DNA of 64,000 bases from Aneurinibacillus uraniidurans (GTDB taxonomy: Bacteria > Bacillota > Bacilli > Aneurinibacillales > Aneurinibacillaceae). This document shows positions 48,216 to 64,000 of this stretch, piece after piece. Made by a program: the position numbers and the translations under genes. The DNA lies in the NCBI RefSeq assembly GCF_028471905.1, contig NZ_CP116902.1:1338501-1402500 (forward strand). Direction: 5' to 3'. The notes under the pieces were generated by a model. That model saw only the letters and a program-made list of their open reading frames with translations, made no database searches and was not told the DNA's origin. The first letter of the stretch is position 1; every line of letters starts with the position of its first letter.

Positions 48216-48217
48216 AA

Positions 48218-49162: not shown

Positions 49163-49176
49163 TATAGTATTGGATG

Positions 49177-49204
49177 TTGGATGATAAACCATAGCTTGGA
49201 TAAT
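49177..49204 (+). promoter_or_regulatory. Possible rpsO promoter
   Basis: TTGGAT (49177-49182), 16-base spacer, GATAAT (49199-49204) just after ribF. A small hairpin follows in the leader (AATCG 49202-49206 with CGATT 49216-49220). Moderate match only. Confidence 0.4.
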
Positions 49205-49259
49205 CGACTCACCGACGATTGTCTAGGGTATTGGGGATATATTAAAGGAGGTGACAAGG

Positions 49260-49529
49260 ATGGCTTTGACACAAGAACGCAAAAACCAGCTGATCGAAGA
49301 GTACCGTACTCACGAATCCGATACAGGATCACCGGAAGTACAGATTGCTATCCTTACGGAGAAAATCAATTACTTAAACGATCATCTGCGTACGCACAAG
49401 AAAGACCACCATTCCCGTCGTGGGCTTCTGAAAATGGTTGGTCAACGTCGTAACCTGCTCGGTTATCTGAAAGATAAAGACGTAGCACGTTACCGTGAAC
49501 TGATTACTAAATTAGGCTTACGTCGATAA
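49260..49529 (+). CDS. rpsO: Ribosomal protein S15
   Basis: The 89-residue S15 contains [20 protein letters not shown] and [16 protein letters not shown]. It binds 16S rRNA early in platform assembly. The ATG at 49260 follows AAAGGAGGTGAC; the GTG at 49251 is part of that site. Confidence 0.98.
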
Positions 49530-49530
49530 G

Positions 49531-49556
49531 AAAAAGCGGGGTTTCCCCGCTTTTTT
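49531..49556 (+). terminator. Intrinsic terminator after rpsO
   Basis: AAAAAGCGGGG (49531-49541), loop TTT, CCCCGCTTTTTT (49545-49556). A strong classical terminator separating rpsO from pnp. Confidence 0.93.
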
Positions 49557-49672
49557 CATGTTCATTATTCTTACTAATAATTTCTTTTATTTCTATGCAT
49601 TGCAGGAAATACTAGAAATATGACGAAAAATATTTTTTGATGATGAGTCAAGAGAGGAGGCCCCATTCGTTT

Positions 49673-51793
49673 ATGGAAGAAGTAAAAGTGTTTGAATTTG
49701 ACCTTGCAGGACGAAAAATGTCCATTGAGTACGGCAAACTTGCCAAACAAGCTAGTGGCGCTGTTCTGGTGCGTTATGGTGATTCTGCTGTGCTGAGCAC
49801 GGTAACGGTATCTAAGAAGCCGTCTCCGCTCAGCTTTTTTCCGTTAACTGTTAATTATGAAGAGAAGCTGTATGCTGTCGGTAAAATCCCGGGTGGCTTC
49901 ATTAAACGGGAAGGACGCCCAAGTGAGAAGGCAACGCTGACAAGCCGTCTGATCGACCGTCCGATTCGTCCGCTATTCCCGGAAGGCTTCCGCAATGAGG
50001 TTCAGATCGTGAATACGGTACTGTCTGTAGATCAGGATTGTTCGACAGAAGTAGCGGCAATGATCGGAACATCGGCAGCACTTTCGATTTCAGACGTTCC
50101 GTTTAATGGACCGATTGGTGGCGTAATTGTAGGCCGTGTTGACGGTGAACTGATTATCAATCCGACAGTCGAACAAATGGAAAAAAGCGATATCAACCTG
50201 ACGGTAGCCGGTACATACGATGCCATTAACATGGTTGAAGCAGGAGCGAAGGAAGTACCAGAAGAAGTCATGCTCGAAGCGATTATGCGCGGTCATGACG
50301 AAATCCGTAAAATTGTGGAGAAAATCCGCGAGATTGCCGCTGAAGTTGGCAAAGAGAAGATGGAAGTGGAACTGCAAGTAGTCGATCCTGAAATCGAGGC
50401 TGCGGTGAAAGAATACGCACAGGCTCGTCTGATCGAAGCGGTTCGCATTGAAGAGAAGCAAGCACGCTATGATGCAATTGATGCGATCAACGATGAAGCA
50501 AAAGAACATTTCGCGGAGATTTACCCAGAGCAAGAGGGCGTAGTAGATGAAGTGCTGCATGACATCGTAAAAGATGAAGTGCGTCGTCTCATTACACATG
50601 ATAAAGTGCGTCCGGATGGCCGTAAGCTGGATGAGATTCGTCCGATTTCATGTGAAGTGGAACTGTTGCCGCGCACACACGGCTCTGGCCTGTTTACACG
50701 TGGACAAACGCAAGTGTTGAGCGTATGTACGCTTGGTGCACTTGGAGATGTACAGATTCTTGATGGTCTCGGTCTTGAAGAATCGAAACGCTTCATGCAT
50801 CATTATAACTTCCCGCCGTACAGCGTAGGCGAAGCTCGTCCGATGCGTGCACCGGGTCGTCGTGAGATCGGTCACGGAGCATTGGGAGAGCGGGCGCTTG
50901 AGCCAGTTATTCCAGGTGATGATGTATTCCCGTATACGATTCGTCTTGTATCAGAAGTACTTGAGTCAAATGGTTCTAGTTCGCAGGCAAGCATTTGCGC
51001 CAGCACACTGGCGATGATGCAGGCAGGTGTTCCAATTAAAGCTCCGGTAGCCGGGATTGCAATGGGTCTCGTGAAAGATGGCGAGCACATGACCATTCTG
51101 ACAGACATTCAGGGCATGGAAGATCATCTTGGCGATATGGACTTCAAAGTTGCTGGTACTCGTGAAGGGGTAACGGCACTGCAGATGGACATGAAAATCG
51201 AAGGGATCAACCGTGAAGTGCTTGAGCAGGCGCTGAATCAAGCGCGGGACGGCCGCCTTTTCATTTTGGACAAGATGGAAGCTGCTATTCCAGCACCGCG
51301 TGAAGAACTGTCGACGTTCGCACCGAAAATTACGATCATGCGTATCAATCCAGACAAAATCCGTGACGTAATCGGGCCAAGTGGCCGTATTATCAACAAA
51401 ATCATTGAAGAGACTGGTGTTAAAATCGACATCGAACAAGATGGTCGTGTTTACATTGCATCTCCAGATGCGGCTGCGAATACAAAAGCGAAGAAAATTA
51501 TTGAAGACATCGTACGTGAAGTCGAAGTCGGTCAAGTGTACGAAGGTACTGTTAAGCGCATTGAAAAATTCGGCGCATTCGTGGAACTGTTCGCAGGCAA
51601 AGACGGTCTTGTGCACATTTCTCAGCTTGCGGAAGAGCGTGTTGGGAAAGTGGAAGACGTTGTTGCGATCGGGGACAAGCTGCGTGTAAAAGTAACCGAA
51701 ATCGACAACCAGGGCCGCGTGAATTTGTCGCATAAAGTTCTTTTGAAAGAAGAAAAAGAACAAGCGGCAGCAGAAGCAGGCAAAACTGAATAA
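49673..51793 (+). CDS. pnp: Polynucleotide phosphorylase
   Basis: The phosphorolytic 3' exoribonuclease of the RNA degradosome. About 706 residues: two RNase PH domains ([34 protein letters not shown]), a helical linker, KH domain ([17 protein letters not shown]) and S1 domain ([19 protein letters not shown]). An in-frame ATG at 49637 lies upstream of the GAGAGGAGG site and is rejected; ATG 49673 gives the usual start. Confidence 0.97.
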
Positions 51794-51801
51794 ATCGAAG
51801 G

Positions 51802-51834
51802 ATAGCGACTGACTGATTCAGGTCGCTATTTTTT
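51802..51834 (+). terminator. Intrinsic terminator after pnp
   Basis: ATAGCGAC (51802-51809) pairs with GTCGCTAT (51822-51829), followed by six T. Confidence 0.85.
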
Positions 51835-51854
51835 ATTATGAAGAGACAAACTGT

Positions 51855-51883
51855 GTATGTTCACACCCGTATCTGCATACCAT
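51855..51883 (+). promoter_or_regulatory. Possible sigmaE (sporulation) promoter of ylxY
   Basis: GTATGTT (51855-51861), exactly 14 bases, then CATACCAT (51876-51883). The -10 differs at one position from the sigmaE consensus and the spacing is ideal; the -35 is weaker. It lies between the pnp terminator and ylxY, a gene of a sporulation-associated family. Confidence 0.42.
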
Positions 51884-51923
51884 GATGGTACAAACTTTGT
51901 AATTGTGTACGGGAGTGAATGAG

Positions 51924-52886
51924 ATGAAAAGATGGATGGTAGCAGCTGGTGTGAGCTTTTTATTATATGGGGTAGTGATGTACAGCCCGGTTGATTCCTT
52001 CATTACATCACGCAAGCTCACCCAGACTACGCTGCAGACGCAGGTAGCAGACTGGGAAGCACGTCTGGCACAGATTGAGTCCGAGAAAGGCGTTGCTCCA
52101 CAGAATGCACGGCTTGACTCAATATGGAAGGCGATTCCGGGTTATAATGGCCTCGTGGTAGACCGTGAGGCAACGATTGCCCGTATGACCAAGGCTGGGC
52201 GGTGGGATGAGAATCAGATTGTATACCGGGAAGTGGCACCAACTGTGCAACTTGACCAACTTGCTCCCGCTCCCATTTATCGCGGGAATCCACAGAAGCC
52301 TGTTGTCGGGTTGATGATTAATGTCGCATGGGGCAATGAGTACTTGCCAGCTATTCTGGATACACTCGCTCGTCATAAAGTAAAGGCGACGTTTTTCCTG
52401 GATGGAAGCTGGACAAAAAAATATCCGGACGAAGCAAAAAAAATCGTGGCTGCAGGTCATGAAATTGGCAGTCATGCGTATTCTCATCCAGATATGAGCA
52501 AGTTGTCCTTAACTCGCATGCAGCAGGAGATCACGCGGACAAATGAGGTGATTCAGGAAGCGACGGGGATCACCCCGACCTTGTTTGCGCCACCATCGGG
52601 AGATTTTGACCAGCGGGTTGTTGAGATGGCAGCGCGTTATAAGATGAAGACAATTCTTTGGACAGCCGATACGATTGATTGGCGTAAACCATCCCCGGAG
52701 CAGTGGTTCCGTACGGTATCTCCTAAGATTAATAATGGTGTACTCGTGCTGATGCATCCAACTTCACCAACAGCTGAGTCGCTGTCCCGCCTCATTGAAT
52801 ATGTACAAAGCAAAGGCCTTACACCCGGTACAGTTAGCGATACAATTTCCTCAAAGCGCATTCCGGCTCCACAAATAGGCAAATAG
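51924..52886 (+). CDS. ylxY: YlxY, sporulation-type polysaccharide deacetylase-like protein
   Basis: A 320-residue NodB-fold protein with an N-terminal membrane/signal segment (WMVAAGVSFLLYGVVMYSP). The NodB domain starts around residue 120: motif 1, normally TFDDG, reads MINVAWGNEY; motif 2 is kept (GHEIGSHAYSHPD), motif 3 is FAPPSGDFD, and ILWTADTIDW and VLMHPT follow. Loss of the catalytic/metal Asp in motif 1 suggests altered or lost deacetylase activity; I recall this substitution as typical of the YlxY family. ATG 51924 follows GGGAGTGA. Confidence 0.9.
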   Translation: MKRWMVAAGVSFLLYGVVMYSPVDSFITSRKLTQTTLQTQVADWEARLAQIESEKGVAPQNARLDSIWKAIPGYNGLVVDREATIARMTKAGRWDENQIVYREVAPTVQLDQLAPAPIYRGNPQKPVVGLMINVAWGNEYLPAILDTLARHKVKATFFLDGSWTKKYPDEAKKIVAAGHEIGSHAYSHPDMSKLSLTRMQQEITRTNEVIQEATGITPTLFAPPSGDFDQRVVEMAARYKMKTILWTADTIDWRKPSPEQWFRTVSPKINNGVLVLMHPTSPTAESLSRLIEYVQSKGLTPGTVSDTISSKRIPAPQIGK

Positions 52887-52969
52887 ACAAATTTTTACTT
52901 GTGTTCTTCGTGCCTCTTTTTATACACTAAGAACATCTGACACAATTGTGTGCTGAGGAGGAAGGCATA

Positions 52970-54217
52970 GTGATCGAAACGTTTACGCTAGACAACGGCG
53001 TACGTATTATTATGGAAAAAATCCCGACAGTTCGCTCGGTAGCACTTGGCGTATGGATTGGTACGGGTTCAAAGTTTGAAAATCCAGAATGGAACGGGAT
53101 CTCCCATTTTATTGAGCACATGCTGTTCAAAGGTACAACGACGCGTTCAGCGAAGCAAATTGCGGAATCATTCGATGAGATTGGCGGCAATGTGAACGCT
53201 TTTACGTCCAAAGAATATACGTGCTACTATGCGCGTGTGCTTGATGAACATGCGTCGGTAGCGCTTGATATTCTTGCAGATATGTATTTTAATTCTGTGT
53301 TTGATGAACAGGAACTGGAAAAAGAGAAAAAAGTCGTCATCGAAGAGATTCGGATGTATGATGATACACCGGATGATCTCGTGCATGATCTGGTTGCAAA
53401 AGCTTGTTACGAAGGTCATCCACTCGGTGCGAGCATTCTTGGCACAGAAGATGTGCTGAACAGCTTGACACGGGATGATCTAAACCGCTACATAGATGCT
53501 CGCTATACGCCAGAGCAGACGGTTATCACAGTCGCTGGAAATTTTGATGACACATTGCGTGATGCGATTGCCAAGCATTTCTGTGGGTATGCGCGTACAA
53601 TGGCTGAGTTGACACCGAATGTTACCCCGACATTTAACGGCGGTACTGTATGGCGCAAGAAAGAAACCGAGCAGGCACATCTTTGCCTGTCGTATCCAGG
53701 GTTTCAAGTCGGGCATCCCGATATTTATTCGCTCATTTTGATGAACAATGTGCTCGGCGGCAGCATGAGCTCACGCCTATTCCAGGAAGTGCGGGAAGAG
53801 CGCGGCCTCGCGTATTCGGTATTCTCGTATCATTCTTCGTTCCAGAATACAGGTACGTTTACCTTGTATGCGGGCACGGCGACCAAGCAATTGGAAGAAG
53901 TGTATACGGTCATGCTGAATACCGTAGCGAAACTGCGCGACGGGGGCATTACAGAAGATGAGCTGCGCAAAGGGAAAGAGCAACTCAAAGGAAGTTTGAT
54001 GCTAAGCCTTGAGAGCACGAATAGTCGGATGAGTCGTCTTGGTAAAAATGAATTATTACTTCGCCGCCATTTGACGCTTGATCAAATTATTGAGCAGGTG
54101 GAAGCGGTGACAACAGACAGCGTGAAGCGGGTGGCTTCTGCGATTTTTGCAGGTCCAATGGCCACTGCGCTTGTGAGTCCACTGGCTGAATTACCAGCGT
54201 ATATGAAGGGGAAATAA
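52970..54217 (+). CDS. mlpA: MlpA (YmxG), M16-family zinc peptidase
   Basis: A 415-residue single-unit insulinase/processing-peptidase homologue with the inverted zinc motif HFIEH (GISHFIEHMLFKGT) and the downstream Glu in the KKVVIEEIRMYDD helix. The C-terminal half has the RGLAYSVFSYHSSF region of this family. GTG 52970 follows GAGGAGGAAGG; an upstream GTG at 52946 lies before that site. dut starts one base after its stop. Confidence 0.93.
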   Translation: MIETFTLDNGVRIIMEKIPTVRSVALGVWIGTGSKFENPEWNGISHFIEHMLFKGTTTRSAKQIAESFDEIGGNVNAFTSKEYTCYYARVLDEHASVALDILADMYFNSVFDEQELEKEKKVVIEEIRMYDDTPDDLVHDLVAKACYEGHPLGASILGTEDVLNSLTRDDLNRYIDARYTPEQTVITVAGNFDDTLRDAIAKHFCGYARTMAELTPNVTPTFNGGTVWRKKETEQAHLCLSYPGFQVGHPDIYSLILMNNVLGGSMSSRLFQEVREERGLAYSVFSYHSSFQNTGTFTLYAGTATKQLEEVYTVMLNTVAKLRDGGITEDELRKGKEQLKGSLMLSLESTNSRMSRLGKNELLLRRHLTLDQIIEQVEAVTTDSVKRVASAIFAGPMATALVSPLAELPAYMKGK

Positions 54218-54218
54218 G

Positions 54219-54668
54219 ATGACAGACGTAACCGTACACATCAACGTACTACCGGGGAACGAAGATATCGGGATCCCGCGTAAAATGACAGACTTAGCAA
54301 GCGGATTTGACCTGTGCGCTGCCGTTCGGGAAACTGTAACACTGGCACCGGGTGAGCGTGGATTGATTCCTGCCGGGTTCGCATTGGCAATGCCTGCGAC
54401 ACTGGAAGCACAAGTGCGCCCGCGCAGTGGTCTGGCGTACAAGAAAGGGATAACGACACTGAATGCGCCGGGTACGATTGATGCAGATTACCGCGGGGAA
54501 GTGGGCGTGATTCTGATTAATCACGGGCAGGAGCCGTTTGTAATTGAGCGAGGCGATCGTATTGCTCAGATGGTGTTTCAATGGGTGCCGCAAGTTACTT
54601 TAGTAGAAGTCGATAATCTCGATGATACGGAGCGCGGTAGCGGTGGTTTTGGGCATACGGGCGTATAA
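54219..54668 (+). CDS. dut: dUTP diphosphatase, trimeric
   Basis: Hydrolyses dUTP to dUMP, keeping uracil out of DNA. The 149-residue protein shows all five motifs: SGFDLCAAV, RPRSGLAYKKG, LNAPGTIDADYRGEV, GDRIAQMVF and the C-terminal RGSGGFGHTG arm. It begins one base after mlpA and likely depends on the same transcript; a terminator follows. Confidence 0.96.
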   Translation: MTDVTVHINVLPGNEDIGIPRKMTDLASGFDLCAAVRETVTLAPGERGLIPAGFALAMPATLEAQVRPRSGLAYKKGITTLNAPGTIDADYRGEVGVILINHGQEPFVIERGDRIAQMVFQWVPQVTLVEVDNLDDTERGSGGFGHTGV

Positions 54669-54678
54669 AAATATGACA

Positions 54679-54711
54679 GGCGAGACCGAATCAATCGGTT
54701 TCGCCTTTTTT
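54679..54711. terminator. Terminator between convergent dut and metallophosphatase genes
   Basis: GGCGAGACCGA (54679-54689) pairs with TCGGTTTCGCC (54695-54705) with one G-U, then six T on the + strand. The - strand gene ends two bases away, so the hairpin probably serves both directions, although only the + side has a T run. Confidence 0.85.
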
Positions 54712-54712
54712 G

Positions 54713-55402
54713 TTAGTTACACGATATAGAAGAGACGTGGTACGTTCCATCTGATTCAATGATGAGTGCATTCAGCTGGCGGCTATGACCCGCACCGCCA
54801 TCAATGCCGATCTTATCGCCGCCGAACCAGACCTCATCTTTGTCATGCAGTTTAAATCCAGGTGTATGGCCAAATACGACGGTTTTGGACAGTCTGGTTG
54901 GGTGCTTGAAAAATTTCTTGCGGATGGAGACAAGTGTTTCCGGTGGGGTATGGTACCAGTCGTCCTGTGCGGGGTCAATGCCCGCATGAACAAAAATGTG
55001 GGCGGAGTTTTCAAAAAAATATGGAAGAGACTGTATCCATGTGATATGACTACTATAGTGCTCACAGATACGTGAGCGGGCAGCAGGTTCCTGCTCCGGT
55101 GTATATGGATGACCGAGATAGCCGGACAGTGTTCCGAATGCGCGGTAGTCGTCTGGATACTCGAGAAGCTCACCGGCAAGCCAGGCGAGGAAGGCATCCT
55201 CATGATTGCCGCGAATGGCGATGGCACCTTCTGTTGTGAGCTGCATGATTTTTTCGATGACGTCTTTGCCACGAGGTCCACTGTCGATGTAGTCACCAAG
55301 TAGAATGAGCTGGTCGATTGTAGGTGTGTAGTTTACAGCGGCGAGCAGGTGGCAGAAAGCATCGTAGTGCCCGTGAATGTCAGAAATACAGATTGTGCGC
55401 AT
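54713..55402 (-). CDS. Calcineurin-type metallophosphatase (PPP/ApaH-like)
   Basis: A 229-residue phosphoprotein-phosphatase-fold enzyme with the full metal-site set: ISDIHGHYDAF, LGDYIDSGPRG, IRGNHED, IFVHAGIDP and VVFGHTPG. Related proteins hydrolyse Ap4A symmetrically or remove phosphate from proteins; the sequence does not decide between them. AAAGGAG precedes the ATG. It is the only - strand gene among dozens of + genes and shares a divergent 100-base gap with the ketosynthase operon. Confidence 0.9.
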   Translation of the reverse strand: MRTICISDIHGHYDAFCHLLAAVNYTPTIDQLILLGDYIDSGPRGKDVIEKIMQLTTEGAIAIRGNHEDAFLAWLAGELLEYPDDYRAFGTLSGYLGHPYTPEQEPAARSRICEHYSSHITWIQSLPYFFENSAHIFVHAGIDPAQDDWYHTPPETLVSIRKKFFKHPTRLSKTVVFGHTPGFKLHDKDEVWFGGDKIGIDGGAGHSRQLNALIIESDGTYHVSSISCN

Positions 55403-55502
55403 ACAAGACTCCTTTATTTTATATATCGTGGTTTATTTTACCTTACCTTATAGAAAAAGACCGTAGACTACTAGGTTCGTGGAAGAGGAGATACAGGTTT
55501 AT

Positions 55503-56498
55503 ATGGAAAGACAGATTAAAGTGCTTGGAACGGGGGCTTATCTTCCCAAGCGCCGGATAATGGCGGAAGAACTGGATCGGAAGCTTGGGATGCGAGATGG
55601 ATGGACTGTGAAGAAATCAGGTGTGGCAGTTCGGCATTATGTGGATGGGGAAACAGCTTCGCAAATGGGAGCGGCGGCTGTCCGGGAGGCGCTGGCGGTA
55701 GCTGGATTAACATTTGCTGATCTGGACTGTCTTGTGTGTGCGAGTGGTACAGCACAGCAGGAAATTCCGTGCACGGCCGCTTTAATTCAGGAACAGTTGG
55801 GAGAAGGCATGTCTGGTGTGCCGTGCTTTGATGTGAATTCTACCTGCTTAAGTTTTGTCACAGCACTTGATACGATGTCCTATCTTGTGCATGCAGGACG
55901 ATATGAACGAATGGTGATTGTCTCAACGGAGATTGCTTCAGTCGGGTTGAACTGGTCCCATAAGGAAAGCTGTGTGTTGTTTGGTGATGGTGCGGTGGCT
56001 GTAGTGATCGGGCGAACGCCAGCAGGAGAGAGCTCGCGTGTGCTCACTTCCCATATGGAAACGTATAGCAAAGGAGCGCATTTGTCTGAAATACGCGGTG
56101 GTGGTTCCATGATTCATCCGCGTGAATATGTACAGGGGCGAGAAGAAGACTTTGCGTTTGATATGGATGGCCGGGCGATTTTTCGTTTAACGTCAAAGCT
56201 GATTGATGGGTATGTAGAGCGTTTGTTTGCCGGGACCGGACTTACGATGAGCACATTTGATCTGGTGATTCCGCATCAAGCAAGCGGTATGGCGATGCGA
56301 ATTATGCGGGAGAAGCTGGGTATTCCCAGGGAGCGGTTCATGGATGTGATCGGGCAGTACGGAAATGTAATCGCAGCTTCGATTCCTCTTGCCCTGCATG
56401 AAGCGATTCAGCAGAAGCGCATGCAGCGCGGCGATACGGTACTGCTGATCGGTACATCTGCCGGGCTGTCGCTCGGAGGTGTAGCTTTTGTCTACTAG
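55503..56498 (+). CDS. Ketoacyl synthase III-like condensing enzyme
   Basis: First gene of an uncharacterised six-gene operon. A 332-residue thiolase-fold enzyme with the complete Cys-His-Asn triad: C115 in VNSTCLSFVTALD, H258 in VIPHQASGMAM, N288 in YGNVIAASIPLAL, and the GDGAVAVVIG loop. It would make a C-C bond by decarboxylative or head-to-head Claisen condensation of acyl thioesters. It is unlikely to be the housekeeping FabH, which normally sits with fabF or other fatty-acid genes. ATG 55503 is preferred; GTG 55479 lies before GAGGAG. Confidence 0.9.
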   Translation: MERQIKVLGTGAYLPKRRIMAEELDRKLGMRDGWTVKKSGVAVRHYVDGETASQMGAAAVREALAVAGLTFADLDCLVCASGTAQQEIPCTAALIQEQLGEGMSGVPCFDVNSTCLSFVTALDTMSYLVHAGRYERMVIVSTEIASVGLNWSHKESCVLFGDGAVAVVIGRTPAGESSRVLTSHMETYSKGAHLSEIRGGGSMIHPREYVQGREEDFAFDMDGRAIFRLTSKLIDGYVERLFAGTGLTMSTFDLVIPHQASGMAMRIMREKLGIPRERFMDVIGQYGNVIAASIPLALHEAIQQKRMQRGDTVLLIGTSAGLSLGGVAFVY

Positions 56499-57663
56499 TC
56501 GGACGGTATTATTAACAGGTGGGCGTGCTCCTGCCACACTGGAACTTGCCCGGATATTGCATCTAGCCGGGCATCGGGTCTTGATGGCGGAGAGTTTTCG
56601 GGCGCATCTATCGCGTCGCTCGCGCAGTATCGCTCGTTCGTATGATGTGCCCTCACCGCGCTATGAAACAGAGGCGTATATGGAACGCCTGTTAGATATC
56701 ATTCGACAGGAAGATGTGGGTGTGCTTGTTCCGACGTGTGAAGAAACGTTCTACATTGCCTTGCATCGGGAGAAGCTTGCGCTGCATTGTGAGGTGTTCA
56801 CAGCGGACAAAAATATGCTGCTGGAGCTGCACGACAAATATGCGTTCATCCAGAAAGCAGCCCACCACGGTTTTCGTACGCCGCGTACTTACCTGGTGGA
56901 ATCACCGTCTGCGCTGAAGATGCTGCAGAAGGAATGGAACTCGACACAGCCGCTGATCGCCAAGCCAGTGTACTCTCGCTTCTCGGCTCATGTTCGCCTA
57001 TGCGAAAACCCCAGTCAACTGCTGGCGCTATCAGAGGAAGTATCGCCATCTGTCCCGTGGGTTGTGCAGGAGTATATTCCAGGTGTGCAGATGTGTACGT
57101 ATACAGTTGCGCACAAAGGACGTGTCGTATTGCATGCCGCCTATCGCAGTGTGTACACAGCCGGGCAGGGGGCGACGATTTATTTTCGTCCAGCGTTTGT
57201 GCCAGAACTTGCGGAACAGGTGGAGCGGTTTGTACAGGAGACGGGATTTCACGGGCAGCTCGCATTTGATTTTATAGAAGAGGAAGGCAGCGGAGAGTTC
57301 GTGGTACTGGAGTGCAATCCGCGCCTGACAAGCGGGATTCATCTGTTCAGCGGACGTCCGGAAGTGGCCTGTGCATGGCTTGGGCTGACCGATCAGATGC
57401 TCGTGCCGCATGCGGATGCGGCGGCGATGCTCGGGCTGGCGATGGTATTGTACGGCCTGCCGCATGTGCGGTCCCGTTCGCAGTGGCGGGCCTGGCGTAC
57501 GGCTGTTGCCGAAGCGCAGGATGTGATCTGGCGAGTCGATGACCCACATCCATTCGGGCAGCAGTTTGTGTCGTATGCCGCACTTGCTGTACGTGCGTGG
57601 CGGTTGGGTACAAGTATGATGGCGGCTTCGACAGATGATATTGAATGGAGTGTGAGACCATGA
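56488..57663 (+). CDS. ATP-grasp ligase
   Basis: A 391-residue CarB-like ATP-grasp protein. N-terminal Rossmann-like domain (VLLTGGRAPATLELARILHL), central ATP-binding lobe (PLIAKPVYSRFSAHV; VPWVVQEYIPG), and metal ligands E275 and N277 in VVLECNPRLTSGIH. Such enzymes activate a carboxylate as acyl phosphate and join it to an amine or thiol; the substrate is unknown. The TTG start (56488) follows CGGAGGTG and overlaps the ketosynthase stop by 11 bases. Confidence 0.87.
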   Translation: MSTSRTVLLTGGRAPATLELARILHLAGHRVLMAESFRAHLSRRSRSIARSYDVPSPRYETEAYMERLLDIIRQEDVGVLVPTCEETFYIALHREKLALHCEVFTADKNMLLELHDKYAFIQKAAHHGFRTPRTYLVESPSALKMLQKEWNSTQPLIAKPVYSRFSAHVRLCENPSQLLALSEEVSPSVPWVVQEYIPGVQMCTYTVAHKGRVVLHAAYRSVYTAGQGATIYFRPAFVPELAEQVERFVQETGFHGQLAFDFIEEEGSGEFVVLECNPRLTSGIHLFSGRPEVACAWLGLTDQMLVPHADAAAMLGLAMVLYGLPHVRSRSQWRAWRTAVAEAQDVIWRVDDPHPFGQQFVSYAALAVRAWRLGTSMMAASTDDIEWSVRP

Positions 57664-58679
57664 AACCGGATGTACTGGTAACCGGAGCGACTGGCTTTCT
57701 CGGGCAGCGGCTGGCTCGATGCCTGCATGCGGACGGATACCGTGTGACAGCGACTGGGCGAAACAGCATAGTAGGAGAGAAGCTGGCGGGTGTAGGAATC
57801 GGATTCATTCCGGCTGATCTGGCGGATAGCGAGGCAGTGGCGGCGCTCTGTAAGGGAAAGACGTATGTGTTTCACAGCGCGGCTCTCTCTTCTCCGTGGG
57901 GGAAGTATCGGGATTTTTATCAGGCAAATGTAGTGGGGACGAAAAACATCATCGCAGGGTGTCAGACGCACGACGTAAGCAGATTGATCCATGTCTCCAC
58001 ACCGAGCGTGTATTTCGCCTATGAAGATCGGTTGAACATTCGGGAGGATGAGCCGCTCCCGCAGCGGTTCGTAAATCACTATGCGGCAACGAAGTTTTTG
58101 GCGGAGCAGGAAGTGGAGCGAGCGGTAAAGAGCGGTCTGCCTGCTGTTATGATTCGGCCGCGTGCTTTGTTCGGACCGGGGGATACGACCATTCTGCCGC
58201 GTCTAATTCGGGCGAATGAGAAAAAATTCGTGCCGCTTATTAACGGCGGACAGGCGCTCGTGGATGTGACGTATGTGGATAATGTAGTAGACGCATTGCG
58301 GCTGGCTGCGGTTGCACCGGAAACAGCGCTCGGTCAGGTATACAACATTACGAACGGGGAACCGCTTAGGCTGATCGATCTGCTTACGATGCTATTCGCT
58401 CGGCTTGAACAGCCGTTTCGCCAGAAGCACTTGTCATTTACTGCGGCGTATCGTCTCGCCTGGCTGATGGAGATGGCATCCCGTACAGTGTTATTTGGTC
58501 GGGAGCCGATATTGACCCGATATTCGGTCGGTGTGCTGGCAAAAAGCCAGACGCTTGATATTTCGCGTGCGCGGGTAGAGCTTGGATATGAACCACGTGT
58601 TTCGATTGAAGAGGGGCTGAATCTTTTTGTGGATGGGTGGCGAAAACAGCATGACTGCAATTACGCTCACGATATTTGA
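57660..58679 (+). CDS. Extended SDR, NAD(P)-dependent epimerase/reductase
   Basis: A 339-residue extended short-chain dehydrogenase with TGATGFLGQRLAR at residues 8-20 (cofactor loop), the Ser region HVSTPSVYF, and Y141-K145 in HYAATK. The overall pattern is closer to 3-beta-hydroxysteroid-dehydrogenase/OleD-like reductases than to sugar-nucleotide epimerases. It probably reduces the keto group made by the ketosynthase. ATGA overlap with the ATP-grasp gene; GGAG upstream. Confidence 0.9.
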   Translation: MKPDVLVTGATGFLGQRLARCLHADGYRVTATGRNSIVGEKLAGVGIGFIPADLADSEAVAALCKGKTYVFHSAALSSPWGKYRDFYQANVVGTKNIIAGCQTHDVSRLIHVSTPSVYFAYEDRLNIREDEPLPQRFVNHYAATKFLAEQEVERAVKSGLPAVMIRPRALFGPGDTTILPRLIRANEKKFVPLINGGQALVDVTYVDNVVDALRLAAVAPETALGQVYNITNGEPLRLIDLLTMLFARLEQPFRQKHLSFTAAYRLAWLMEMASRTVLFGREPILTRYSVGVLAKSQTLDISRARVELGYEPRVSIEEGLNLFVDGWRKQHDCNYAHDI

Positions 58680-59496
58680 TACGGGGTACTGCCGCCAGCT
58701 TGAAGCGATCTCGCTGCGCGGCGGGGAATGGAGAATGGTTCCGTTTCATGCGCTGGCTTTTGGGATCAGCCACCCAGAGCGCGGCCTGGTGTTGTTTGAT
58801 ACAGGATATACGGGACATTTTTTCGATGCCTGCCGCACGTTTCCGCTGTCGCTATACAGTAAAGTGACGCCAGTGTGTACGCACCCTGCGCAAAGTGTCG
58901 CTGCGCAGCTTCAAAACCAGGGATTGGACCCGGCATCTGTGCGAACGGTGCTGCTGTCTCATTTTCACGCGGATCATATTGGCGGGGTGCGGGATTTTGG
59001 GCAGGCAGAGTTTGTTTGTATGAAAGAAGCGTATGAACATGTGCGAGAGCGGCGCGGGTTTGCCGCTGTTCGGCACGGGTTTTTGCCACCGCTTCTACCG
59101 GATGATTTTGCGGAGAGAGTACGATTTGTAGATGAGCGAGAAAAAGTGTTGCTATCGGATAAGTGCTGTCCATTCACGGAAGCGTATGATGTGTTCGGGG
59201 ACGGGAGTGTACTGGCTGTCGAATTGCCGGGACATGCGGTTGGGCAGTATGGCGTGTTTCTGACTGATGAGAATGGGCAGGATATCTTCTTATGTGCGGA
59301 TGCGGCCTGGTCGAGTCGGGCGTACCGGGAGAACATGCTTCCGCATCCGCTTGCCTCTTTGATTATGTCAGATGTGTACGCATATCGGGAGACGCTTGGG
59401 AAGCTGCACGAGCTTCATCGAAGGAACCCAACACTCCGCATCTATCCGACACACTGTGCGGACGTGTGGCGTCTCAGTCAGGAGGGACAAGCATGA
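58651..59496 (+). CDS. Metallo-beta-lactamase-fold hydrolase
   Basis: A 281-residue MBL-fold enzyme with the dinuclear metal set: H104-H106-D108-H109 in SHFHADHIGG, H195 in LPGHAVGQ, D217 in LCADAAW and H268 in YPTHCADV. The length and pattern resemble lactonases and MBL thioesterases; in this operon it could release a thioester or open or close a lactone. It starts 29 bases inside the SDR gene and overlaps the next gene by ATGA. Confidence 0.9.
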   Translation: MTAITLTIFDTGYCRQLEAISLRGGEWRMVPFHALAFGISHPERGLVLFDTGYTGHFFDACRTFPLSLYSKVTPVCTHPAQSVAAQLQNQGLDPASVRTVLLSHFHADHIGGVRDFGQAEFVCMKEAYEHVRERRGFAAVRHGFLPPLLPDDFAERVRFVDEREKVLLSDKCCPFTEAYDVFGDGSVLAVELPGHAVGQYGVFLTDENGQDIFLCADAAWSSRAYRENMLPHPLASLIMSDVYAYRETLGKLHELHRRNPTLRIYPTHCADVWRLSQEGQA

Positions 59497-60812
59497 ACAA
59501 ATGGACCGTACTGGCACAGTACATCCGCACTACCTCTCGCATGCGTCGCTTTCGAACCCGCGAGGCGCTTATGGATTGGCAGGAGCGGCAGGTTCAGCAG
59601 CTGCTTGCGTATGTGCTACCGCGTTCGTCCTTTTACCGCGAGGCGTTTGCCGGGCGTAGGATGGAGGAGTGGCGCCTGCTTCCACCTGTGGAGAAGGCGG
59701 AGATGATGGCGGAGTTTGATCGGTGGAACACGGTGGGAGTGACGCGGGAAGAGGCGTTTTCTACTGCGTGGGAAGCGGAACAATCACGGGATTTTACACC
59801 GGTCGTTCGGGGGATTACGGTCGGGTTATCATCCGGCACGTCAGGCAATCGTGGTCTGTTTCTTGTGAGCTCGGATGAGCGGGCACGCTGGGCGGGAACA
59901 GTGCTTGCCAAGCTTTTGCCTGGACCGCTCTGGCAGCGGCATGCCGTGGCGTTTTTCTTGCGGGCGAATAGCAATTTGTACACGAGTGTAGGAGGACGGC
60001 TGATTCGATTTGAGTTTTTTGACCTGCTTGATCCCTTGACGGTCCATATCAAACGGCTGGAAACGTATCAGCCGACGATTCTAGTTGCTCCGCCATCGAT
60101 GCTGCGTTTGCTGGCAGAAGCGTACCGTGCTGGCACGCTTGCCATGCCTGTTCCACGCAAAATTATCTCCGTAGCGGAAGTGTTAGAGCCGCTGGACGAC
60201 CTATACATACAAGAAACATTCGGGCAGCAGGTGCATCAGGTGTATCAATGTACCGAAGGGCTGCTGGCGGCGACGTGTTCACATGGGACGCTACATGTGA
60301 ATGAAGATGTGCTGCTGCTGGAAAAAGAATACCTCGATGACAAACGGTTCACGCCGATTATTACCGATTTTTCGCGGCTGAGTCAGCCCATCATTCGCTA
60401 CCGGCTAAATGATATTCTGGTCGAAAAAACGGAGCGATGTCCGTGCGGCTCAGTGTTTATGGCATTAGAGCGAATAGAAGGGCGGTGTGATGATGTGTTT
60501 TATTTGCCGTCTATTCAGTGTGCGGATGAGATGATCTCGGTATTTCCTGACTTTATTCGGCGCGAACTGATTGCCGCATCTCCGTTGATTCTCGAATACA
60601 GAGCTGTGCAGCATGCGCCGGATTGCATCCAGCTGTCGCTAAAAACAGAAGGACCGCTGGAAGTGATAGAACCGCTCGTACGCCGTCGATTTGCTGCACT
60701 ATTTGCTTCGCTTGGCTGTTGTATGCCTGAGCTTGTGGTCGGGTCATATGAGTGGGTGGGCGGCGACCGAAAACTGCGGCGGGTAGAAAGGAAGCAGTTC
60801 TCTCATGATTGA
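59493..60812 (+). CDS. F390-synthetase/PaaK-like adenylate-forming enzyme
   Basis: A 439-residue AMP-forming enzyme. Signature loop SSGTSGNRG at 113-121, A5-like YQCTEG at 251-256, IITDFSRLSQPIIRYRLNDI, and a Cys-x-Cys pair at 316 and 318 (RCPCG), as in phenylacetate-CoA ligases. It resembles proteins usually named F390 synthetase-related. It should activate a carboxylic acid as acyl adenylate for transfer to CoA, carrier or amine. ATG 59493 follows AGGAGGGAC and overlaps the MBL stop. Confidence 0.85.
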   Translation: MNKWTVLAQYIRTTSRMRRFRTREALMDWQERQVQQLLAYVLPRSSFYREAFAGRRMEEWRLLPPVEKAEMMAEFDRWNTVGVTREEAFSTAWEAEQSRDFTPVVRGITVGLSSGTSGNRGLFLVSSDERARWAGTVLAKLLPGPLWQRHAVAFFLRANSNLYTSVGGRLIRFEFFDLLDPLTVHIKRLETYQPTILVAPPSMLRLLAEAYRAGTLAMPVPRKIISVAEVLEPLDDLYIQETFGQQVHQVYQCTEGLLAATCSHGTLHVNEDVLLLEKEYLDDKRFTPIITDFSRLSQPIIRYRLNDILVEKTERCPCGSVFMALERIEGRCDDVFYLPSIQCADEMISVFPDFIRRELIAASPLILEYRAVQHAPDCIQLSLKTEGPLEVIEPLVRRRFAALFASLGCCMPELVVGSYEWVGGDRKLRRVERKQFSHD

Positions 60813-61959
60813 ATCGATCCGCTTGTATGATTGTACGAACATTCAGGAGCTACCGTGGGAAAGGATGCGGGATGGGGCATATGCAAAAGCGTATATGCTT
60901 CCGCTTATGAAAAACGGAGCTTGTACGTACATATCGAATGTGCAGACGACCGTGCTGGCGCTTACGGTAGGAGATATCGTCATGCCGGTAACGGTTAATG
61001 GAGCAGAGTACGACAATTCGTATGTATGCTCGCCGTATACGCATTATGTGTCTTACGCGGAGGAAGAGCTTGCGATGCTGAAGTCTCCGCTGCTCGAAAA
61101 AACACTTAGGCTTCTGCTGCGCGGTGTAGGTAGTGCGATGCGGACGAGCCGGGTAAACAAGATTGTATATGTGAACAATTGGTTGCTATCGACGAATCTG
61201 TACGAAGCGGAAAGCGCGCGGTATGCTTCCGAGATTGTAGAGTTTTTAGGCAAGCGTTTCCCAAATCATATCATTGCCTTCCGTTCGCTTAATCGTAAGC
61301 TTTATGCGGATTGGTGTGAAAAATTAGAAGCGTGTGGATGTTTGCTGGTGGGGAGTCGGTATGTATATGTATTTGACCCACAAACGATATCGATCATGCC
61401 ATCGCGTGTTCGTAATACGCTGCGCCGGGATGCGAAGCAACGGGTGCGGCACGGGTATGAAGTGGTACGAAGCGATGAGATGACGATAGAAAATATGGAG
61501 CGGTTGGTCGAGTTATACCGGGAATTGTATATTGATAAATATTCGGTGCACAATCCGCAGTTCACCTCTGATTTTCTGGAGCAAGCGCGGCGTACGGGGA
61601 TTTTGACATTGATTGGGCTGCGCCGTGCTGGACAGATCGATGGGGTGCTGGGCTATTTTCAGCGCGGTGGAGTTATGACGACTCCGGTGTTCGGGTATAA
61701 CATGTTGTTACCAAAAGAAACAGGGCTGTATCGCATGCTTTCAAGTGTATTGGTGGAGGAAGCGGTAGCAAATGGACTTTTGCTTCATCAAAGTGCTGGA
61801 GTCGGGGCGTTTAAAGCAGACCGAGGAGCAGATGGGGTGCGGGAATATACGGCTGTTTATGTGAATCACTTGCCGCGTTCCCATAGGTTCATCTGGTATA
61901 TTCTTGCGATGCTGATTGAGCGTATTGGATTTCCGCTTGTGGAGAAATACAAGCTGTGA
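60805..61959 (+). CDS. GNAT/FemAB-like acyltransferase
   Basis: A 384-residue protein with the look of a duplicated GNAT fold (FemAB/BioF2-like). The C-terminal half has SRVRNTLRRDAKQRVRHGYE, MERLVELYRELYIDKYSVHN, LTLIGLRRAGQIDGVLGYF and HQSAGVGAFKADRGA; a hydrophobic stretch near the C-terminus (FIWYILAMLIERIGFPL) may touch the membrane. It may acylate the product of the preceding enzymes. Last gene of the operon, starting eight bases inside the ligase gene. Confidence 0.75.
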   Translation: MIESIRLYDCTNIQELPWERMRDGAYAKAYMLPLMKNGACTYISNVQTTVLALTVGDIVMPVTVNGAEYDNSYVCSPYTHYVSYAEEELAMLKSPLLEKTLRLLLRGVGSAMRTSRVNKIVYVNNWLLSTNLYEAESARYASEIVEFLGKRFPNHIIAFRSLNRKLYADWCEKLEACGCLLVGSRYVYVFDPQTISIMPSRVRNTLRRDAKQRVRHGYEVVRSDEMTIENMERLVELYRELYIDKYSVHNPQFTSDFLEQARRTGILTLIGLRRAGQIDGVLGYFQRGGVMTTPVFGYNMLLPKETGLYRMLSSVLVEEAVANGLLLHQSAGVGAFKADRGADGVREYTAVYVNHLPRSHRFIWYILAMLIERIGFPLVEKYKL

Positions 61960-62086
61960 TCGCAATTTACGGAGCTATATTAAAAGAGATGATTGACAGG
62001 TTTAGACTTTTCCAACATGTAGTGGAGAAGGAAGGAACCCGTTGTGTAGAAATAATAAAGTCGTTCAATTTTGATATGATAAAATG

Positions 62087-62123
62087 AACAACCTTCCATT
62101 CATCTAATAAATGGAAGGTTGTT
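62087..62123. terminator. Perfect 14-bp hairpin between convergent genes
   Basis: AACAACCTTCCATT (62087-62100) and its exact complement (62110-62123) with a nine-base loop. It lies between the end of the six-gene operon and the convergent SUMF1-domain gene. No long T run follows on either strand (AAAGTTGTTT on +, CATTTTATC on -), so its strength is uncertain. The rest of 61960-62150 shows nothing else I can name. Confidence 0.6.
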
Positions 62124-62150
62124 AAAGTTGTTTAATTCGTAATTTTATAA

Positions 62151-62900
62151 TTATAAAGTGATTGATCTAGCAATTCTAAATCCGATATCATCTATATAAA
62201 AATCAGGCATACTCTTACGGCGGCAAGTAGCTCCACAGCCACGTTCTTCTTCCGCCCAACTTCCTCCGCGAATTATTCTGTAAGTACCAAAGGTTTCTGC
62301 ATCGTATAAGTCCCAGCACCACTCCCAAATATTACCGATCATATCATACAAGCCCCATTCATTAGGCATTTTCTCACCAACTTCGTGTACCCGTTCGTTA
62401 GAATTATCTTTATACCAAGCAATTTCATCAATTTCACCATACCGATATCCTTTTGATTTTGCCTTACATGCATATTGCCATTCAGCATCTGTCGGTAAAC
62501 GAAAACCATTAGTACCATAATTGCAAACAACTTCTTTACTTTCATTATCAAAATCATAAAACTTGTCATAACCCAGCGTATCAGACAGTAAATTACAAAA
62601 ATTCACTGCATCTATCCATGAAACATTAACAACTGGTTTTCGAGCCTCAGTCGTTGTTACTAATTTCTTTCCCATAATAATCGCATAAAGTTCTTCTGTC
62701 ACTGTATATTTGGCAAGATAAAATGGCTCTATCTCAACATCCCAAATAACTTCCTTTAAATTTTTTCTAATACCCGGCATTCCAAATTTATAGTTTGAAC
62801 TAATCCATTTTTGCTCGTTTCGGAAATCTCGTAGGTGGGTTTCTCCTTCAGGAATATACACCATTAAATCTTTTACGTAGTCATTTAAGTTAGCTAACAT
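62151..62900 (-). CDS. SUMF1/FGE-domain protein
   Basis: A 249-residue formylglycine-generating-enzyme-fold protein: FYLAKYTVTEELYAIIMG, PVVNVSWIDAVNFCNLLS, NGFRLPTDAEWQYACKA, MIGNIWEWCWD, IIRGGSW and DIGFRIARS. No sulfatase is nearby, and the paired active-site cysteines of true FGE are not evident (a single C in GATCRRKS), so activation of a sulfatase is not claimed. The gene is visibly AT-rich against its neighbours, on the opposite strand, and flanked by hairpins: likely a transferred cassette. AGGAGAGGG precedes the ATG. Confidence 0.85.
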   Translation of the reverse strand: MLANLNDYVKDLMVYIPEGETHLRDFRNEQKWISSNYKFGMPGIRKNLKEVIWDVEIEPFYLAKYTVTEELYAIIMGKKLVTTTEARKPVVNVSWIDAVNFCNLLSDTLGYDKFYDFDNESKEVVCNYGTNGFRLPTDAEWQYACKAKSKGYRYGEIDEIAWYKDNSNERVHEVGEKMPNEWGLYDMIGNIWEWCWDLYDAETFGTYRIIRGGSWAEEERGCGATCRRKSMPDFYIDDIGFRIARSITL

Positions 62901-63034
62901 TGCCCTCTCCTAGTCTTGAATTAATGTTTTTAGATACATTATGGTGTTTTATTCGGATTTATCTTGAATAAAGGTGCCCGTTTATTGAAGATTCGATTGC
63001 TGAATTTTCTATACGATTATTATAAACAATATCT

Positions 63035-63065
63035 AAAAAAGCCGACACTAGATTCAAGTATCGGC
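63035..63065 (-). terminator. Terminator oriented to the - strand
   Basis: On the - strand GCCGATACT pairs with AGTGTCGGC through one G-U pair (63041-63049 with 63057-63065), followed by six T (63035-63040). On the + strand the same site has an A-C mismatch, so the - orientation is favoured. It would stop leftward transcripts from reaching the SUMF1 gene. No promoter for that gene was identified in 62901-63034. Confidence 0.65.
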
Positions 63066-63177
63066 TTCTCTCTTCTCTACTCCCACCACCAAAGTTGCTC
63101 TATTTTCTAGCCAAAGTGCATTTCTCCACCTGAATACCAATATATATGAAGAAAGGTGTACAGGGGGAGGCATGTAA

Positions 63178-63429
63178 ATGCGCTATAGTGAATTAGGTGG
63201 CAAGGAGATCATCAATCTTGATAATGGAGAACGGATGGGAGTTGTCGGGCAGTCCGATCTGGTCATTGACTCGAAAACCGGCTCTATTGAATCGATTATC
63301 GTGCCGCATACAGGCATGCTCAAAATCGGACGTAAAAAAGACGATGTGATGATTCCGTGGAAATCAATTCGGAAGATCGGCAGTGAAATGATTATTGTCG
63401 AGCAGATGGAGGAAGGGGAGGAGCGATAG
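63178..63429 (+). CDS. ymxH: YmxH/YlmC family PRC-barrel protein
   Basis: An 83-residue PRC-barrel protein (YSELGGKEIINLDNGERMG, then the GQSDLVIDSKTGSIESIIVP strand pair, WKSIRKIGSEMIIVE). The family is common in endospore formers; in Bacillus ymxH follows mlpA. Its exact role is unknown. GGGGGAGG lies seven bases before the ATG. Its stop codon lies within the left arm of a large palindrome. Confidence 0.92.
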   Translation: MRYSELGGKEIINLDNGERMGVVGQSDLVIDSKTGSIESIIVPHTGMLKIGRKKDDVMIPWKSIRKIGSEMIIVEQMEEGEER

Positions 63430-63667
63430 GAAAAGTGTGGTGGTGGAGACGGGAAGAGAGAGGTTTGGAGCTGTTTTATGCGCTTCGGGGGAGTGATGAC
63501 TGTCCGCTCCAGAATCCCGGCGGACTCGCCTGCAAAGCGCTTCCGGAGACGAAGCTATAGGAGCAATTGCAGGCAAAAGCCCGTCCGTCGGTCTTCTTCC
63601 GCTAGGCAGGCACATAAAAAGGCTTCCGCACCTTCTCTCTTCCCGTCTCCAACCGCATTTTGCTATC
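63425..63667. repeat. 243-bp imperfect palindrome with 17-bp perfect core arms
   Basis: Arms extend from GATAG (63425-63429, within the ymxH stop) to CTATC (63663-63667). The best part is GGAGACGGGAAGAGAGA (63445-63461) matched exactly by 63634-63650. Similarity runs on inward through the TTTTATGCGC and GCACATAAAAA segments. The centre holds its own nested stem: GCCTGCAA (63528-63535) with TTGCAGGC (63567-63574) and CGGAC (63521-63525) with GTCCG (63583-63587). No transposase is present; it looks like a MITE or other dispersed intergenic repeat. Confidence 0.75.
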
Positions 63668-63708
63668 CTCCCACTTTATAAAGAGAAAAACATAAAAGAC
63701 AAGTCTTG

Positions 63709-63755
63709 AAGTGCCTCGGGTGCCGCAAAGCGGCAGTGGGGCACTTTTCTTTTTT
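63709..63755 (+). terminator. Terminator hairpin downstream of ymxH
   Basis: Stacked stems AAGTGC (63709-63714) with GCACTT (63741-63746), and TGCCG (63721-63725) with CGGCA (63731-63735), then TTTTCTTTTTTG. It is the first T-run terminator after ymxH, beyond the palindrome. Confidence 0.7.
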
Positions 63756-63807
63756 GTTTTTCATCGAAGTGATACGTGAAAGTCTGTTTTATTGTGTAAG
63801 TAACAAA

Positions 63808-64000
63808 GTATGTTGGGAGCCTAGCGGAGAAAAGCAGCGGAACGCTTTTACGCGACAAGCTTAGCGGAAGGCGTTCAGCAGACGCATTTTTGCCCGCAAG
63901 CTTCCATGAATAATCCTCTTCGCTCCCCATTTGCGGGCGCGTCTGCCGGACGTCTGGAGCGGACAGTCATTGCTCCTAGCGGAGCGTAACGCAGTGACGA
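63808..64000 (-). repeat. Second, inverted and diverged copy of the repeat core, cut by the window edge
   Basis: TCTGGAGCGGACAGTCAT (63953-63970) is the exact reverse complement of 63496-63513. Similarity continues: a stem of GCAGACGC (63878-63885) plus GCCCGCAA (63892-63899) with TTGCGGGC (63931-63938) plus GCGTCTGC (63939-63946) sits where the first copy has its central stem, and a CCGCTAGGC motif lies at the matching far end of both. No gene was recognised in 63430-64000; short open frames there lie in these repeats. Confidence 0.7.

Follow-up and report, generated by a model that had tools for sequence, protein, structure and literature searches.

Two acyl chains are joined by the ketosynthases MxnB and CorB (described in passages of PMC5724707 and PMC4578411). 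MxnB is reported to condense two carrier-bound chains, and its Cys121 to lie at the crossing of two tunnels (passages of PMC5724707). OleA and PpyS use a glutamate from the partner subunit (OleA E117, PpyS E105), in place of which MxnB and CorB carry V94 (passages of PMC4578411). Here we analyze a 64,000-nucleotide stretch of the Aneurinibacillus uraniidurans genome (assembly GCF_028471905.1, contig NZ_CP116902.1, positions 1,338,501 to 1,402,500 of the forward strand), hereafter the window, in which an operon of six genes encodes a ketosynthase (KS) apparently of the MxnB/CorB type, an ATP-grasp ligase, a short-chain dehydrogenase/reductase (SDR), a metallo-β-lactamase (MBL)-fold hydrolase, an adenylating enzyme related to coenzyme F390 synthetase (F390) and a transferase of the GNAT type. 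As an earlier sequence-only reading had stated, the genes are adjacent on the plus strand at 55503-61959 and overlap by 11, 4, 29, 4 and 8 bases, which we reproduced from the coordinates; all six reading frames are open.

That reading took the six genes together as a dedicated pathway. We find that the unit consists of four core genes (KS, OleD-like SDR, MBL and F390-like), to which interchangeable tailoring genes are added, and that the core is nearly certainly one pathway. The notion of a dedicated, co-inherited pathway is therefore retained on the strength of the linkage described below, while that of a six-gene unit gives way to a core of four, the ATP-grasp and GNAT genes varying between lineages.

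Linkage and distribution of the core genes

Among 398 Bacilli genomes, the adenylating-enzyme family TIGR02304 was found above its cut-off in 66 (67 loci), the KS family NF005541 above its cut-off in 53 (54 loci), and the ATP-grasp family NF005315 at E 1e-50 in 58 (62 loci). An F390 gene lay within 10 kb of the KS at every one of the 54 KS loci, and an ATP-grasp gene at 53 of them. Conversely, 66 of the 67 F390 loci have a KS nearby, 54 by the family model within 10 kb and 12 as a divergent KS detected by tblastn, with MBL and SDR genes also adjoining F390 at these 12. The sequence-only reading would have been undermined had the genes rarely occurred together within 10 kb, and the survey returned the opposite. 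The remaining F390 locus (L132, genome G127, genus g28) is a decayed operon with a nearly whole F390 gene, remnants of the SDR, MBL, GNAT and an extra SDR, and no KS match by blastp.

Co-inheritance was also observed at the level of the proteins: across 35 chosen loci that have all four core genes, the pairwise distance matrices of the four core proteins correlate at 0.82-0.89, and the largest correlation among 999 label permutations was 0.34. Because the permutation ignores shared ancestry, the correlation is read as genes travelling together, with no interaction implied.

In a scan of named genomes, gene content was tallied over 80 loci, the best 80 of 543 confirmed, so that the shares lean towards close relatives; counting was by blastp, by which divergent or cut genes are missed. 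F390 was present in 80, MBL in 78, SDR and KS in 75 each, ATP-grasp in 69, GNAT in 51 and an extra SDR in 40. The gene order of the window operon recurs in 44 loci (in 19 of them followed by a further SDR, in 25 not), which speaks against a chance arrangement, and five loci (L063, L083, L092, L102 and L114) consist of KS-SDR-MBL-F390 only, L063 being a short contig cut near both ends. When flanking families were tallied from open reading frames (ORFs) of at least 90 residues, ten of them annotated, the sole common plus-strand family was a classical SDR (PRK06914-like), found in 40 of the 80 loci; in 39 of these it follows GNAT or F390, and in the remaining one it separates MBL from F390. The window operon contains no member of this family.

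Beyond these Bacilli, the core is present in Streptococcus-like Bacilli, Fusobacterium, and alpha-, beta- and gammaproteobacteria. In distant phyla SDR-MBL-F390 keep this order, preceded or followed by the KS. The tailoring sets differ by lineage: an ATP-grasp ligase with a FemX/MprF-like transferase in the window, and elsewhere a glycosyltransferase-like protein, a sulfotransferase, a Rieske oxygenase, or a hydroxylase-like protein with a desaturase. TIGR02304 occurs in 33 of 118 genomes of a genus, with genomes of about 2 Mb, that we take to be Streptococcus-like from synteny, the neighbors having been recognized by eye as ffh- and guaA-like. The Streptococcus-like variant, seen at L128-L131, has the order SDR-MBL-F390-KS, and neither ATP-grasp nor GNAT was matched there. 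Next to its SDR, in all three stretches tested (L128, L129 and L131), lies a macrolide-type glycosyltransferase-like gene, below its family cut-off; two of these stretches are from that genus and one is from another genome (G100). Among 14 control genomes, only Deinobacterium chartae has TIGR02304 above its cut-off.

The core also occurs in records labeled as plasmids. Of 25 matching records, 12 were examined, and ten contain all four core genes: Pontibacillus, Paenibacillus, Escherichia coli, Pseudomonas FeN3W, Ketogulonicigenium, two Paracoccus, Paraburkholderia, Shinella and Fusobacterium. Some of these records are chromosome-like in size or content (Fusobacterium, 2.1 Mb; the E. coli record, with nar genes). 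The E. coli core (L156:6137-13018, NZ_CP141085.1) sits between narGHJI and purU and is followed by genes for a PAP2 phosphatase, a sterol-desaturase-family protein with weak likeness to the ornithine-lipid hydroxylase OlsE (66.6 bits against a cut-off of 475) and an acyl-CoA desaturase. This seven-gene stretch has matches in 672 of 5,426 complete E. coli genomes, CFT073 included, 671 of them over at least 80% of its length; 671 of 673 matching places are chromosomal, and the matches are 95-99% identical to the query in 568 of the 672 genomes. The Rhodobacterales loci add a divergent TetR regulator and a sulfotransferase. In Paraburkholderia, ATP-grasp and GNAT genes stand behind the core, and in Shinella GNAT and Rieske genes do so, with an ATP-grasp gene on the opposite strand. 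Among the cyanobacterial loci, L105 has all six genes with a Rieske oxygenase and an ABC transporter added; L118 (also with a Rieske oxygenase), L119 and L125 have the SDR and no KS in the stretch searched; and L081 and L097 have neither in that stretch, L097 and L125 being cut by contig ends.

Encoded proteins and their active sites

The window KS matches NF005541/PRK07204 with 517.5 bits, above the cut-off of 402; the KS of the Streptococcus-like locus (296.2) and of E. coli (333.4) fall short of it. The score of the window KS against PRK09258, which we take to be an OleA-type model, is 103.7 bits, below the cut-off of 285. Among PDB sequences, the best match is 4v2p (MxnB, 247.8 bits), then CorB (221.9), with FabH enzymes from 182.1 bits down, 3h76 ("PQS biosynthetic enzyme", presumably PqsD) at 98.8, weaker than MxnB, and 3s21/3s23 (OleA) at 55.4. 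The names MxnB for 4v2p and OleA for 3s21/3s23 follow PMC5724707. The Cys-His-Asn triad is conserved in all 89 aligned family ketosynthases. The position of the OleA/PpyS glutamate holds isoleucine in 68 and leucine in 21 of these and valine in MxnB and CorB, and glutamate in no family member; the column was set by counting along the 4v2p alignment, taking the catalytic cysteine as C121 and V94 as the V of "QQAVP". The triad and the I/L pattern are kept in the KS of E. coli, Pseudomonas, Ketogulonicigenium, Fusobacterium and others. By its nearest solved structures, its triad and its lack of a glutamate base, the KS thus appears to be of the MxnB/CorB type.

For the conservation alignments, rows covering less than 90% of the window protein were dropped, which left a single Streptococcus-like row in the MBL set and no such row for ATP-grasp or GNAT. 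The SDR gives its best matches to OleD-type models in the window, in a Streptococcus-like locus and in E. coli, all below cut-off, and its catalytic Tyr and Lys are conserved in 89 of 89 relatives. The best NCBIfam match of the MBL protein is the AttM lactonase (102.4 bits, below the cut-off of 390); its HxHxDH motif, the next His and the Asp metal ligand are present in all 83 relatives and the last His in 82, and a PDB sequence search gave no PqsE match to E 0.001. The adenylating enzyme scores 500.5 bits against TIGR02304 (cut-off 251.9), with each residue of SSGTSG conserved in at least 91 of 92 relatives, Asp307 in all 92 and the C-terminal Lys in 91; its solved relatives among PDB sequences are phenylacetate-CoA ligases.

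The ATP-grasp protein falls narrowly below the NF005315/PRK06849 cut-off (401.8 bits against 406), with its Lys and ExN conserved in 77 of 77 relatives, and its structural model (predicted local distance difference test, pLDDT, 95.3) has its nearest folds in 2pn1, GAR synthetase, PylC and PurK, with Z scores of 24-26. Across all five catalytic families, the residues named in the sequence-only reading are thus invariant or nearly so, and its statement that the catalytic motifs are intact was borne out.

The last gene, described there as GNAT-like, encodes a protein with a weak Acetyltransf_6 match in Pfam (26.8 bits, cut-off 22) and no NCBIfam match. Its model (pLDDT 92.4) is best matched by Sbb17 (Z 17.8, root-mean-square deviation (rmsd) 3.5, 264 aligned residues); the aminoacyl-tRNA-dependent peptide synthases Sbb17 and Sba18 lie at Z 17.4-17.8, FemX at 16.7, MprF at 16.2, mycothiol synthase at 13.7 and N-myristoyltransferases at 12-13. 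The alignments with Sbb17, Sba18, FemX and MprF have rmsd 3.5-4.2 over 261-289 residues at 10-15% identity, and a search of PDB sequences gave no sequence match to the FemX/MprF/Sbb17 group. The GNAT assignment therefore holds as a tandem arrangement and not as a plain acetyltransferase, since the modeled fold is closest to aminoacyl-tRNA-dependent transferases. The predicted FemX/MprF-like two-GNAT fold is a likeness of fold only. It makes aminoacyl transfer as likely as acyl transfer, and such likeness does not settle which substrates the GNAT and ATP-grasp proteins use.

Proposed pathway and alternatives

We tentatively propose, at somewhat less than an even chance, that the conserved core makes a hydroxylated, lipid-like acyl scaffold that is decorated by lineage. 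The KS would load an acyl thioester on its cysteine and join a second acyl chain to it, giving a β-keto thioester that the MBL-fold enzyme would hydrolyze to the acid; the OleD-like SDR would reduce the β-ketone to a β-hydroxyl, and the F390-like enzyme would adenylate the carboxylate for transfer. In the window organism, a group with an amine or a carboxyl, perhaps an amino acid, would then be attached by the ATP-grasp ligase together with the FemX/MprF-like transferase. The proposal rests on a core that could join, release, reduce and activate, on variable decorating genes, and on the lack of a recurrent carrier; head-to-head fusion is favored because of the kinship of the KS with MxnB and CorB. 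No carrier protein is encoded inside the window operon, whose genes overlap, and small ORFs with a carrier-type Ser motif are not recurrent, being scattered in 10 of the 80 loci and mostly on the opposite strand, which fits thioesters of coenzyme A (CoA) or of the acyl carrier protein of primary metabolism. The tailoring genes suit a lipid or a hydroxyl group: PAP2, hydroxylase-like and desaturase genes in E. coli, a sulfotransferase in Rhodobacterales and a glycosyltransferase-like gene in the Streptococcus-like loci.

Several points weigh against this proposal. All reactions, their order, head-to-head in preference to malonyl-based condensation, and the product class are inferred. FabH-type malonyl extension uses the same Cys-His-Asn triad, so that an MxnB-like sequence is no proof of fusion. 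MxnB and CorB themselves fall within the FabH clade (passages of PMC4578411). Our KS tree (34 family rows, MxnB, CorB and three FabH of this genome) carries a long-branch warning between MxnB/CorB and FabH and is for that reason used as a picture only. The OleD model, although the best family match of the SDR, gives 257.6 bits, far below its cut-off of 580. In the Bacilli survey, 8 of 62 ATP-grasp loci have no KS within 10 kb, which indicates that this family has other uses. Two second copies in Brevibacillus (L091 and L100) are without the core OleD-like SDR and have a classical SDR (PRK06914-like) behind GNAT, as if replacing it. The Pseudomonas megaplasmids pMPPla107 (L157) and pBASL58 (L164) carry an F390 gene with no KS in the stretch searched; weak ATP-grasp matches lie 1-3 kb from that gene, among mostly hypothetical neighbors.

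Of the alternatives, a route resembling synthesis of the Pseudomonas quinolone signal (PQS) fares best and is nevertheless rather unlikely. Here the F390/PaaK-like enzyme would activate a starter acid, the KS would extend it with a malonyl thioester, the MBL enzyme would release the β-keto acid and the SDR would reduce it, the product being a small β-hydroxy acid amide or glycoside, perhaps a signal. Ligase, FabH-type KS and thioesterase functions are also found in pqsA-pqsD-pqsE (passages of PMC6204780), and the kinship of the adenylating enzyme with phenylacetate-CoA ligases and the retained triad for decarboxylative condensation would suit such a route. Yet the KS is nearer to MxnB and CorB than to any FabH or to 3h76 by the scores given above, and the MBL protein lacks a PqsE match to E 0.001. 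We also know of no OleD-like SDR in PQS synthesis, which counts further against it.

Formation of a β-lactone, as in Ole or lipstatin biosynthesis, is improbable: the KS would condense head to head, the SDR would reduce, the F390-like enzyme, like OleC, would close the ring via an acyl-AMP, and the ring would be opened by the MBL enzyme for transfer to a partner. OleA-OleC-OleD clusters make β-lactones, and one such cluster has an added glycosyltransferase (both in passages of PMC7064751), as the Streptococcus-like variant has its glycosyltransferase-like gene; the best matches of the SDR to OleD-type models and the resemblance of the MBL enzyme to lactonases point the same way. The KS, however, lacks the OleA glutamate. 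Moreover, the adenylating enzyme and the hydrolase matched the PaaK-group and MBL families, rather than the ligase and α/β-hydrolase types of OleC and OleB, and to our knowledge no β-lactone synthetase belongs to the PaaK group, a further count against this route. Finally, it is very improbable that the KS alone makes an α-pyrone as MxnB, CorB or PpyS do, with the other genes modifying it, for although MxnB and CorB are its nearest relatives and share a hydrophobic residue in place of the glutamate, the core SDR, which 75 of the 80 loci have, the four-gene ones among them, has no role in pyrone formation and the hydrolase would be idle.

A broader form of the scaffold proposal is possible but doubtful: that the core makes one scaffold across phyla, a head-to-head fused β-hydroxy acid or its β-lactone, decorated in various ways, with the F390/PaaK-type enzyme in a new activating role. 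If so, bacteria as far apart as Paenibacillus, Streptococcus-like species, Fusobacterium, Paracoccus and E. coli would decorate that scaffold by aminoacylation or ligation, by glycosylation, by sulfation, or by hydroxylation and desaturation of the chain. The resulting lipids or signals would form one family, shared among bacteria but chemically diverse.

Genomic setting and comparison with known systems

The features of the locus are collected in Table 1. The sequence-only reading had placed the operon between dut and ymxH, interrupting a conserved block. It does occupy that gap, though not directly, as two minus-strand genes intervene, and the interruption is supported within the genus: among seven genomes, this one included, dut and ymxH lie close together without the operon in five, and the operon stands at the identical site in this genome and in G004. 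In 1-kb windows, G+C is 0.54-0.57 between about 56500 and 60500, 0.48-0.53 at the operon ends and 0.44-0.51 in the flank at 48000-55500, and the closest KS relatives in the 39-row tree are from Brevibacillus, at up to 67% identity. The operon is most simply read as having been gained by transfer into a gap that already existed; loss from the other genomes of the genus is a possible alternative.

Table 1. Operon genes and neighboring features, in window coordinates
Feature	Position	Strand	Basis or remark
Core 1: ketosynthase III (NF005541/PRK07204), MxnB/CorB-like	55503..56498	+	NCBIfam and PDB sequence match
Tailoring: ATP-grasp ligase (PRK06849-like)	56488..57663 (TTG start)	+	NCBIfam just below cut-off; fold model
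Core 2: extended SDR, best family match OleD 2-alkyl-3-oxoalkanoate reductase	57660..58679	+	NCBIfam below cut-off
Core 3: MBL-fold hydrolase, AttM/AiiA-like, full two-metal ligand set	58651..59496	+	
Core 4: F390 synthetase-related adenylate-forming enzyme (TIGR02304), PaaK superfamily	59493..60812	+	
Tailoring: tandem-GNAT transferase, predicted FemX/MprF/Sbb17-like fold	60805..61959	+	Pfam and fold model
Upstream intergenic region, common to operon and divergent phosphatase-like gene	55403..55502		
Phosphatase-like gene	54713-55402	-	Between dut and operon
FGE-like gene (FGE-sulfatase, PF03781)	62151-62900	-	Between operon and ymxH

No sigma-70-like match was found inside the upstream intergenic region, and an Rfam search of 54000-64000 gave no RNA element. 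Sporulation control was not supported: in 76 sequences upstream of the KS, promoter patterns were near shuffled levels (sigK 19 against 12.2, sigA 2 against 1.1), and those for sigE, sigG, sigH and sigB were absent. A role in anti-phage defense was rejected, as none of the six proteins has a PADLOC match; at E 1e-10, none of the 50,697 phage records searched matched the adenylating enzyme. The FGE-like gene sits in a G+C-poor stretch (0.35-0.42) and is unmatched in the stretches examined at this site in the six other genomes of the genus, G004 among them. Behind ymxH lie three inverted repeats, with arms at 63490-63536/63930-63976 (47 nt, 83% complementary), 63567-63607/63859-63899 (41 nt, 71%) and 63444-63461/63634-63651 (18 nt, 100%); the region 63444-63976 has no Rfam match.

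The sequence-only reading recognized no characterized cluster with this combination, and our searches of the open-access literature and of PDB sequences likewise gave no match. In the one open-access library searched, with subscription journals and preprints outside its scope, nothing names TIGR02304, PRK06849 or PRK07204, and nothing links F390 synthetase to 3-oxoacyl-ACP synthase III or to a ketosynthase together with ATP-grasp. "Coenzyme F390 synthetase" appears in none among the matches listed, the family combination gave only an unrelated match, and the streptococcal cluster gave none, the E. coli locus not having been searched by name; given this scope, a description elsewhere is possible. 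The core is thus without an assigned product in the open-access literature searched. It is a compact set of four enzymes whose composition and, largely, order are kept across phyla, and roughly one complete E. coli genome in eight has it. If the proposed scaffold pathway is right, one pathway with many decorations would have a product that could be found in an easy host, the genes that decorate it would reveal how a single scaffold is varied among bacteria, and a function would be given to TIGR02304 and PRK07204, so far named by resemblance only.

Among known systems, MxnB and CorB of myxopyronin and corallopyronin biosynthesis share with the KS the Cys-His-Asn triad, the lack of a catalytic Glu, and related "CLSF" and "HQxS" motifs. 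MxnB takes its chains from carrier proteins of a polyketide synthase (passages of PMC5724707), whereas in the loci described here neither such a synthase nor a recurrent carrier-type ORF was seen. The OleABCD and OleACD systems likewise combine one each of a thiolase-fold KS, a hydrolase, an AMP-forming enzyme and an OleD-like SDR, but the present core differs from OleABCD in a KS without the OleA glutamate, an adenylating enzyme of the PaaK group and an MBL-fold hydrolase. The pqsABCDE operon also unites an acid-activating ligase, a FabH-type KS and a pathway hydrolase (passages of PMC6204780), while the operon analyzed here has an extra reductase, other tailoring and no PqsE match to E 0.001. 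The AttM/AiiA lactonases have metal ligands that are present in the MBL protein, whose score of 102.4 is below the cut-off of 390. With FemX, MprF and Sbb17, the last protein has the predicted two-GNAT fold in common, at only 10-15% identity in structural alignments and with no sequence match.

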